DNA of 64,000 nucleotides from Catenuloplanes atrovinosus (GTDB lineage: Bacteria > Actinomycetota > Actinomycetes > Mycobacteriales > Micromonosporaceae). The notes under the pieces are model-generated. The model was not told the DNA's origin and searched no databases. It saw only the letters and a list, made by a program, of their open reading frames with translations. Of this stretch, positions 58,894-61,548 are shown piece by piece. Location: contig NZ_JAVDYB010000001.1 in assembly GCF_031458235.1 (NCBI RefSeq), forward strand, positions 3,617,001-3,681,000, written 5' to 3'. Numbering within the stretch: the first letter of the stretch is position 1; every line of letters starts with the position of its first letter. The translations under genes were made by a program, and so were the position numbers.

Positions 58894-59688
58894 TCAGCGC
58901 GCGTGGCGCTGCGCCCAGTCAAGGGCGGTGTCGGCGATCCGCTCCCAGCCCGGCTCGGCGCACGTCCAGTGCGAGCGGCCCGGGAACTCGACGTAGTCTG
59001 TGACCGTGCCCTCGCCGCGGTAGTGGTGGGCGTTGGAGCGGTTCACCGACGGCGGCATGATGTGGTCCGCGCCGCCGGCGATGAACAGCAGCGGGGCCCG
59101 ATTCGGGTTGCGGTAGTCGACCCAGGTCTCCTGCCTGCCCGGCTTGAAGTTGGCGATCAGGCCGTACGACCAGACCCAGCTGCCCGGCGCCGGGATCGCG
59201 TACCGCTCGTAGGCGGCGCGCGAGTCCGCTTCGGACAGCGTGTTGGTGAACGCGTACCGCCACTGCTCGTGGGTGAAGCCGGCGGCCCGATGGCGCTTGG
59301 CCGGATTGTTCAGGATCGGGAACAGCGACCGGATCTGCGACGGCGGCGTGACCCGGATGCCCTCGGTCGGCGCCGAGTTGATCACCACGCCGGCGGCGCC
59401 GTGGCCGCGATCCAGGAGCAGCTGCGTCAGCGTACCGCCGAAGGAATGGCCCATGATGATCGGCTTTTCCGGCAGCGCGGTGATCACTTTTTCCAGGTGG
59501 GCGACGGTGTCCGGCACGGTCAGCGTAGCGATCGGCGTCGGGTCCGCGCGCAGCGCCTCGACCTCCACCTCGAAGCCGGGGTACGCCGGGGTGATCACGG
59601 TGTGGCCCTTCGCCTCGAAGTGCCGGACCCACCCCTCCCAGCTGCGCGGCGTCACCCACAGCCCATGAACCAGAACAATGGTGCTCAT
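58894..59688 (-). CDS. Alpha/beta hydrolase (lipase/esterase-like)
   Basis: The 264-residue protein starts at ATG 59688 (MSTIVLVHGLWVTPRSW), with the oxyanion HGLW stretch, the nucleophile elbow GHSFGG, a GGADHIMPP segment carrying the acid Asp and the late His in PGRSHWT. It is cytosolic. A longer frame that adds 46 residues reads through the 74-bp repeats and is rejected. The start overlaps the stop of a repeat-encoded mini-ORF as ATGA, so translation may be coupled. It is the last of three tandem hydrolase genes. Confidence 0.87.
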   Translation of the reverse strand: MSTIVLVHGLWVTPRSWEGWVRHFEAKGHTVITPAYPGFEVEVEALRADPTPIATLTVPDTVAHLEKVITALPEKPIIMGHSFGGTLTQLLLDRGHGAAGVVINSAPTEGIRVTPPSQIRSLFPILNNPAKRHRAAGFTHEQWRYAFTNTLSEADSRAAYERYAIPAPGSWVWSYGLIANFKPGRQETWVDYRNPNRAPLLFIAGGADHIMPPSVNRSNAHHYRGEGTVTDYVEFPGRSHWTCAEPGWERIADTALDWAQRHAR

Positions 59689-59762
59689 GCCGTACACCCC
59701 TCCTCGCTGCCGATACGCCGTGGTCGGCGCTGAGCCGATGATTCGCTCGCAAGCTCGCTCAT
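59685..59762 (-). CDS. Repeat-encoded mini-ORF, copy 2 (25 codons)
   Basis: ATG at 59762 opens a 25-codon frame beginning [13 protein letters not shown] that ends in TGA at 59687-59685. Both ends overlap neighbours as ATGA: its start with the stop of copy 1, and its stop with the start of the hydrolase gene. It differs from copy 1 at a few positions. Whether the peptide matters or only the coupling does is unknown. Confidence 0.5.
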   Translation of the reverse strand: MSELASESSAQRRPRRIGSEEGCTA

Positions 59763-59836
59763 GCCGGACCCCCCTCCACGCTCCCGATACGCCGTAGTCG
59801 GCGCTGAGCCGATGATTCGCTCGCAAGCTCGCTCAT
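59689..59836 (-). repeat. Two tandem 74-bp direct repeats between hydrolase genes
   Basis: Units run 59836-59763 and 59762-59689 (leftward). The first 40 or so bases (ATGAGCGAGCTTGCGAGCGA onward) are identical and the rest differ at a handful of positions. The period of 74 is 25 codons minus the one base lost in each ATGA overlap, so each added unit keeps the stop/start chain intact. Confidence 0.9.
59759..59836 (-). CDS. Repeat-encoded mini-ORF, copy 1 (25 codons)
   Basis: ATG at 59836 overlaps the TGA of the upstream hydrolase gene (stop at 59835-59833). The 25-codon frame begins [13 protein letters not shown] and ends in TGA at 59761-59759, overlapping the start of copy 2. Confidence 0.5.
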
Positions 59837-60651
59837 GCCGTCCACTCCCTTAGAAACGCGAGCAGGTCGGCGCCGAGCTGCTCCTTGTGGGTGTCGGTGA
59901 TGCCGTGCGGTGCGCCGGCGTAGACGATCAGCTCGGCGTCCTTGATCAGGGCGGCGGACCGCTTGCCGCCCACGTCGAACGGCACGACCTGGTCCGCGTC
60001 GCCGTGGATGACCAGCGTCGGCACGTCGAACCGGGCGAGGTCGTCACGGAAGTCGGTGGCCGAGAACGCGGCGATGCACTCGTAGGCGTTGCGGTGCCCG
60101 GACGCCATCGACTGCAGCCAGAACGCGTCCCGCACGCCCTGCGACGCGGCGCCGCCGAAGAACGGCCCGGCCGCCAGATCACGATAGGTCTGCGACCGGT
60201 CGGCCAGCGACCCGGCGCGGATCGCGTCGAACACCGTGACCGGCACGCCCTCCGGGTTGTCCGGCGTGCGCAGCATGAACGGCGGCACCGCGGAGACCAG
60301 CACGGCCTGCGCGACCCGGCCGGTGCCGTGCCGCCCGATGTACCGCGCCACCTCGCCGCCGCCGGTGGAGAACCCGACCAGCGTCGCGTCCCGCAGGTCC
60401 AGCGAGTCCAGCAGCGCGGCGAGATCGTCCGCGTAGGTGTCCATCTCGTTGCCGTGCCAGGTCTGCGTGGATCGGCCGTGCCCGCGCCGGTCGTGCGCGA
60501 TCACCCGGTAGCCGTGCGCGGCCAGGTACAGCGCCTGCGCCTCCCAGCTGTCGGAGTTGAGCGGCCAGCCGTGCGACAGCACCACCGGGCGGCCGCTCCC
60601 CCAGTCCTTGTAGAAGATCTGCGCGCCGTCCTCGACGGTGACGAAAGGCAT
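59833..60651 (-). CDS. Alpha/beta hydrolase, cofactor-free haloperoxidase/arylesterase type
   Basis: The 272-residue protein starts [18 protein letters not shown], a hallmark of the non-haem chloroperoxidase and arylesterase group. The catalytic triad is visible: Ser in VGFSTGGGE, Asp in [10 protein letters not shown] and His in APHGITD. It likely acts on esters, and can make peracids in relatives. The ATG follows the TGA of the previous gene by two bases. Its own stop overlaps the first 74-bp repeat unit. Confidence 0.88.
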
Positions 60652-60653
60652 GA

Positions 60654-61469
60654 TCAACGACCCTTCGAGACGGTACGGGCGGCGAGCGCGATCAGGTCGG
60701 CCGTGACCCGCGGCTGGGAGATCATGGCGACGTGCGAGGCGCGGATCTCGACGGTGCGCGCCCCGGCCCGCGTCGCCATGAACCGCTGCGCCGCGGCCGG
60801 GATGAGCTGGTCGTCGCGCGCGACGAGGTACCAGGACGGAACCTGCCGCCAGGCCGGCGCGCCGGACGGCTCGCTCAGCGTGCGTGTGTCACCGGGCCGC
60901 TGCGTCGCCCACATCAGGTCGGTGGTGGCGGTCGGCAGGTCACCGGCGAACACCTCGCGGAACGCGGCGGCCTTGACGTACCCGTCGTACCCGCCGGGGT
61001 GCGGCCGGACGTCCAGCTGCGCCTCGCCGAGCCTGGTGCCGGGGAACAGCACCTGGAGGTCGTGCACGGTCTCGCCGGCGTCGGGCGCGAACGCGGCCAC
61101 GTAGACGAGCGCCTTCACGTTCGCGTTGCCGGTGGCCGCGTTCGTCAGCACGAAGCCGCCGTACGAGTGCCCGGCCAGCACGATCGGGCCGGGCACGGTG
61201 GTCAGGAAGTCCGCCAGGTAGGCGGCGTCGGACGCGACGCCGCGCAGCGGATTCGGCGGTGCCAGCACCGGGTAGCCGTCGCGGCTCAGGCGGCGGATCA
61301 CCTCGGTCCAGCCGGACGCGTCCGCGAACGCGCCGTGCACCAGCACGACAGTGGGTTTGGGCCCGGTGCCGCCCGCCGCGGCCGGGACCGCGGTCGTGGC
61401 GGTGAGGACGCCGGCGGCCACGACGGCCGCCGAGCCGGCCAGCACCGTACGCCGGGGTAGTTCGCTCAT
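60654..61469 (-). CDS. Exported (Tat) alpha/beta hydrolase
   Basis: ATG 61469 has AGGAG upstream. The 271-residue protein has a twin-arginine signal ([18 protein letters not shown]) and an alpha/beta hydrolase domain with HGAF, the nucleophile in AGHSYGG, and an RDDQLIP acid and late SHVAM His region. It resembles the EstC-like esterases annotated beside haloperoxidases. It begins the three-gene hydrolase operon, with the STAND regulator gene 79 bp upstream on the same strand. Confidence 0.87.
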
Positions 61470-61548
61470 GAAATCGCTCTCCTGAGGCGTCTGCGATCGA
61501 TACGAGCCACATGCAACCAGCGGACGCACCGGCGAACCATGCGGAACA

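Follow-up and report, generated by a model that had tools for sequence, protein, structure and literature searches.

The 64,000-nucleotide stretch of Catenuloplanes atrovinosus analyzed here (contig NZ_JAVDYB010000001.1, positions 3,617,001 to 3,681,000; hereafter the window) contains, on its minus strand, two direct repeats between two alpha/beta hydrolase genes. The two units start at 59836 and 59762, 74 bp apart, and each holds an open reading frame (ORF) of 25 codons. The stop of the upstream gene, both short ORFs and the start of the downstream gene are joined by ATGA overlaps at 59836, 59762 and 59688, exactly as a first-pass annotation of the window had described. The ORF of unit 2 spans 59762-59685 (25 amino acids), and the ATG of the downstream hydrolase lies at 59688; the ORF of unit 1 counts 25 codons from the ATG at 59836, while its ORF call reaches back to a GTG at 59845 (28 amino acids). 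The two-unit repeat is not a product of chance, since a 30-base unit pattern (at most 3 mismatches allowed) is found twice in the window, where 0.00 matches are expected, and a 23-base core with up to 3 mismatches has 134 matches in this 8.9 Mb genome (65 and 69 by strand) against 0 for the reversed-pattern control. We consider it highly probable, from the sequence comparisons reported below, that these units, here called the MSELASES type, form a mobile and expandable translational relay of the same kind as the mycobacterial interspersed repetitive units (MIRUs), which Supply et al. reportedly described in 1997. The features of the locus are collected in Table 1.

Table 1. Features of the repeat locus in the 64-kb window
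Feature	Positions	Strand	Remarks
Repeat unit 1, 74 bp	59763..59836	-	ATG overlaps upstream TGA; 25-codon ORF; GGAGG (Shine-Dalgarno-like) near 3' end
Repeat unit 2, 74 bp	59689..59762	-	93% identical to unit 1; 25-codon ORF; stop overlaps downstream start
ATGA overlap	59833..59836	-	Upstream hydrolase stop / unit 1 ORF start
ATGA overlap	59759..59762	-	Unit 1 ORF stop / unit 2 ORF start
ATGA overlap	59685..59688	-	Unit 2 ORF stop / downstream hydrolase start
Upstream gene, alpha/beta hydrolase	59833..60657	-	Abhydrolase_1, E 6.8e-34
Downstream gene, alpha/beta hydrolase	58894..59688	-	Abhydrolase_6, E 3.1e-19 (scanned 58894-59682)
Next gene upstream, third alpha/beta hydrolase	60654..61529	-	4-base overlap with following ORF as called (60654-60657)

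The units belong to a large family. Of 300 genomes from the bacterial family, 57 carry the core when up to 2 mismatches are allowed; the carriers fall in 10 of 44 genera, and one genome has as many as 129 copies. Among named genomes, at least 120 stretches contain the exact 23-mer, and its hosts include Actinoplanes, Pseudonocardia, Kutzneria, Kibdelosporangium, Actinokineospora, Amycolatopsis, Saccharothrix, Nocardia, Rhodococcus, Mycobacterium, Trebonia, and one metagenome-assembled genome (MAG) of the Acidimicrobiales. We analyzed 59 arrays with 143 units from 53 regions; the units were reduced from 146 core matches by leaving out three weak ones, two of them by the mismatch filter. The set is a lower bound: it rests on a portion of the 134 matches, and one or more copies, among them 8330575, lie outside it. 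Twenty arrays are single units and 39 contain 2-7 units, and a single genome holds both dispersed and tandem copies, as with MIRUs. Units of the same array look alike by eye, as expected from tandem duplication. The predominant lengths are 77 bp (44/74 in the first 80 named loci and 22/42 in the other named loci) and 74 bp (18/74 and 12/42). A Pfam match was obtained for 25 of 30 flanking proteins, for example in nuoI-nuoJ and ABC transporter pairs.

To place the units relative to the genes, we used a codon model for which 102 long ORFs served as the training set. For 53 of the 59 arrays, the downstream gene agrees with the chain in both strand and frame; it is unclear in 6 and elsewhere in none. 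The orientation of the units is thus that of the adjacent genes in 53 of the 53 clear cases. The upstream gene ends at the first ATGA in 42 arrays. The question of whether the core lies at random with respect to stop and start codons, raised in the first-pass annotation, was settled by tabulating the 144 exact copies in 120 named loci, for which the codon model was trained on the window's genome. Their placement is not random: 116 are the beginnings of short ORFs that end in a 4-base stop/start overlap (116 of the 140 uncut copies), 22 run on into a longer ORF (at least 159 bases; some are two fused units) and 4 are cut by the locus end. Where the upstream frame is clear, it stops at the ATGA in 82 of 85 cases; in 7 of the 144 copies it is cut. 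Downstream of the 116 short-ORF copies, the gene is in frame in 75, off frame in 8 (6 of which are followed by another unit), unclear in 30 and untested in 3. The background of 4-base overlaps, estimated with a rough gene caller, was 7 among 36 near co-directional pairs in the window and 73 among 232 such pairs in 52 other array-bearing loci, which are a biased set.

The reading frame is maintained in two different ways. It had been noted in the first pass that a 74-bp period is just what keeps the chain when a unit is added. The period does keep the chain, but it is not the sole length to do so: 77, 71, 68, 65, 62 and 59 bp also keep it, and arrays of 75 bp keep it as one fused ORF. At junctions with a period of 2 mod 3, the start codon overlapping TGA is kept in 44 of 44 cases (23 arrays), whereas at 75-bp junctions it is lost in 30 of 35; five other junctions (72, 64, and three of 73 bp) keep both start and TGA. 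The 15 arrays composed only of 75-bp periods are open throughout in the unit frame, 11 of them ending in a coupled stop and 4 running into the next ORF. Stop codons in 86 units of 74 bp are found in the unit's own frame in 1, in frame 1 in 11 (first ATGA excluded) and in frame 2 in 37. The Shine-Dalgarno stretch follows the same division. The mean pairing energy with the anti-Shine-Dalgarno sequence, calculated by array, was -8.2 for internal units of the 74 type (23 arrays) and -7.65 for terminal units (48 arrays), compared with -3.2 for internal units of the 75 type without a start (12 arrays) and -3.6 for random 19-mers; the Mann-Whitney test against these 75-type internal units gave p values of 3.7e-5 for the 74-type internal and 1.9e-5 for the terminal units. 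In paired 75-type arrays, the terminal unit pairs better than the internal one in 5 of 8. The start, the stop and the ribosome-binding stretch tend to stay or go together, which is the main argument for a probable role in translation, and the maintenance of the frame supports a relay function.

We suggest that the unit is a short mobile element that would work as a translation relay. Each unit is laid out as a start that shares an ATGA with the upstream stop, roughly 25 open codons, a Shine-Dalgarno-like stretch towards the 3' end, and a stop that shares a second ATGA with the following start. After terminating at the upstream gene, a ribosome could start again on the unit, translate through it, and initiate once more at whatever follows, be it another unit or the downstream gene. 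Insertion at a stop/start overlap or at a start codon would leave downstream translation coupled, the presence of a unit would be nearly neutral, and copies would multiply in tandem after insertion. At a period of 75 bp, units are fused into one ORF in which the internal start and Shine-Dalgarno stretch are mostly lost, and the array either ends in a coupled stop or is read into the gene.

It had also been proposed in the first pass that the repeats might be a small-peptide family. According to this hypothesis, the units encode a functional conserved peptide (MSELASES...) and the coupling is incidental. With one unit taken from each of 50 arrays, synonymous changes numbered 196 against a base-matched expectation of 161 (standard deviation 11), and 120 against 92 (standard deviation 8) in the 3' half, so that a modest excess does exist; function of the peptide is only weakly supported by it. 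However, the 3' half of the peptide is highly variable, both inside a genus and from genus to genus, entropy shows little phase bias, the peptides are joined into one in 75-type arrays, and some copies turn into the N-termini of genes. The 5' half is conserved at the DNA level, including the codons CTT and GAA, which we take to be rare in this genome, and their retention suggests that the 5' core is constrained at the DNA or RNA level. We regard a conserved peptide as an improbable explanation of the family.

Even less probable is that the units are regulatory DNA or RNA, such as a promoter, an attenuator or a structured RNA, placed between operon genes. Such a role has a precedent in the MIRUs of the senX3-regX3 gap, which, in passages of PMC4213456, can drive senX3-independent expression of regX3. 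At the locus studied here, however, a scan that covered promoters of the sigma-70-like type only, and terminators, detected neither, there was no Rfam match, and the two window units fold no better than shuffled sequences, of which 192/200 and 184/200 were equally or more stable. In addition, a promoter would not be expected to maintain a reading frame.

Six junctions were compared with four congeners (G001 to G004). A unit-like insert was found in 6 of the 24 comparisons and no unit in 18, and this presence and absence of units at the same junctions upholds the earlier idea of a mobile or expandable coupler inserted at ATGA junctions, for which a comparison of strains for unit gain or loss had been recommended. 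The window junction holds two units in this genome and a single 74-bp unit in G001; in G002, G003 and G004 it consists of the overlap alone. The nuoI-nuoJ junction has two units in G000, one in G004 and, in G002, a 77-bp unit belonging to a different subtype; G001 and G003 have nothing there but the ATGA. A search of this junction covered 31 genomes, of which 2 gave no match and 1 only short pieces; 25 of the 29 matches listed (28 genomes) were without a unit, and in 24 of these 25 the stop codon of nuoI is part of an ATGA or GTGA, so that the unit-free arrangement is probably ancestral. The single unit preceding an ABC permease has no counterpart in 4 of 4 congeners, and the site of a 374-bp array ahead of a PHO4 transporter holds inserts of 59 and 62 bp in two congeners and none in two. 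At the junction L119 8347351, three congeners have no unit (the G002 site differs by 21 bases), and at L119 8344019 a unit is present in none of the four, in an alignment that is not clean. We infer that the differences between congeners are gains and not losses, which is best founded at nuoI-nuoJ, and the comparative sites support mobility. Transposition would presumably be carried out by an enzyme.

Two inserts of other sequence were observed at these junctions. In G004 (L331, L338), the junction L119 8347351 is occupied by a 65-bp insert that differs in sequence (MTERAGAGSDDGRRGSAAEETA) and is bounded by ATGA, which suggests a second element family of like design. In L292, an order-level relative, nuoI-nuoJ holds an unclassified insert of 101 bp that contains GAGCGCAGCGAA and ends at ATGA.

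Insertion at a fixed tetranucleotide is reminiscent of elements moved by Y1 transposases (REP/RAYT and IS200/IS605 types), and the units resemble REP/RAYT elements in being short, dispersed and non-autonomous. Mobilization by such an enzyme is nevertheless the least credible of the alternatives and very unlikely, as the only transposase family searched for, Y1_Tnp (PF01797), matched in 0 of 5 genus genomes and in 5 of 14 control genomes, there is no inverted repeat of 8 or more bases in the two window units scanned, and the units, unlike REP/RAYT elements, maintain a reading frame. The identity of the units as REP/RAYT elements is disfavoured for this genus on the same grounds, namely no Y1 protein in the 5 genomes searched and no palindrome in the two window units.

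Orientation in the direction of the adjacent genes is a defining trait of MIRUs, and the MSELASES-type units share it. They also resemble MIRUs in being a small ORF coupled to its neighbors by a 4-base overlap and in sitting at start codons or stop/start overlaps that have empty counterparts. Passages of PMC12548453 (citing Supply et al. 1997) describe MIRUs as apparently mobile, inserting at start codons and coupling at -4; by this account an element of the kind is known in mycobacteria, whereas the first-pass annotation knew of none. Titles and abstract openings among the matches listed in literature searches aimed beyond mycobacteria (1 of 1, 20 of 123, 5 of 5 and 20 of 134) contained no such element outside mycobacteria. 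The coupling upstream ORFs that deliver ribosomes to the next gene, as treated in passages of PMC12548453, are likewise short ORFs joined to the next gene's start, but here the ORF is a dispersed repeat that is present or absent between congeners.

Regarding the lengths of the known units, MIRU04 has units of 77 and 53 bp (PMC2453075), and the senX3-regX3 MIRUs are confined to M. leprae and the M. tuberculosis complex (PMC4213456). By eye, remnants of similar appearance were present in a few of 20 mycobacterial loci, and a pattern derived from one such remnant matched 31 of 60 genomes of the genus, with 1 match for the control. Among 43 listed MIRU-like matches (30 loci), 19 parse as ATGA-to-ATGA units, 13 of them being 53 bp (six from one array), and 24 misfit the parser's single assumed frame, some because their ATGA is in another frame; the MIRU-like copies are therefore less uniform than the MSELASES-type family. 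The mycobacterial units likewise show ATGA ends, a GAGGAGG stretch and tandem copies. MIRU-like matches were also seen to recur at spacings of 50, 51, 53 and 54 bp, and one array (L350, 51 bp) is read through into the gene. In view of this read-through, fused arrays are not unique to the MSELASES-type family, and MIRUs may switch between chained and fused arrays too.

The two groups differ in sequence. Profile searches in either direction gave no significant match (best E 1 in one comparison and 0.039, for a search of 71 units, in the other, with no M. tuberculosis copy among the compared units). The MSELASES-type units are mostly 77 or 74 bp, whereas the parsed MIRU-like units are mostly 53 bp; 18 of the 19 MIRU-like units carry the shared motif GAGCGnAGCG in codon phase 0, but its phase is 2 in 34 of the 42 MSELASES-type units that have it (42 of 73); and the host range of the MSELASES type is much wider than the mycobacteria. 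The MSELASES-type units appear to work like MIRUs, and homology of sequence, when tested, received no significant support. Judged by these comparisons, they are a new, widely distributed family of MIRU-type elements.

Several observations weigh against a mobile relay. Twelve arrays are without a clear upstream gene and five have an upstream gene in another frame, which indicates that some units sit in leaders or gaps, and in the named records the upstream frame is unclear in 52 of 144 copies. All 59 arrays pass the chain test alone, but this test has little force, because GC-rich DNA readily yields long ORFs by chance, and the weight rests on the frame test. The periods of L069 and L092 are irregular, and L092 has no downstream coding signal. 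Two of the 144 exact cores (L230, L233) give short ORFs that end without an overlap, two of the off-frame downstream calls have no following unit to explain them, and one of the 86 units of 74 bp has a stop in frame. In 3 of the 8 paired 75-type arrays (both of L107, and L118), Shine-Dalgarno pairing is weaker in the terminal than in the internal unit. Finally, the search limited to PF01797 yielded no mobilizing enzyme. The two named-locus exceptions and the Shine-Dalgarno result in 3 of 8 arrays slightly reduce our confidence in the relay.

It is quite possible, although somewhat less likely than not, that the units represent an Actinobacteria-wide class of non-autonomous mobile elements, with a body built as a relay and targeted by an enzyme to stop/start overlaps, that would spread in operons while leaving them intact. 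This design would be shared by families of distinct sequence, namely the MSELASES type, the MIRUs and the 65-bp MTERAGAG type, seen once, and their arrays would switch between a chain of mini-ORFs and a fused ORF. More than 100 copies per genome in non-mycobacterial actinomycetes, together with empty sites in congeners, provide a system for testing mobility, and the same system allows the effect of unit number on downstream translation to be tested. The repeats also matter for annotation, as some proteins beginning with MSELASES carry a repeat-derived N-terminus.

Two further occurrences of the core deserve mention. In the Acidimicrobiales MAG (L159), a distant lineage, the core is found with units of 101 and 95 bp, for which horizontal transfer or a binning error is possible. 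In Actinophytocola algeriensis (L205:1664-1806), one ORF begins with an expanded repeat in which a core-like stretch recurs every 30 bp.
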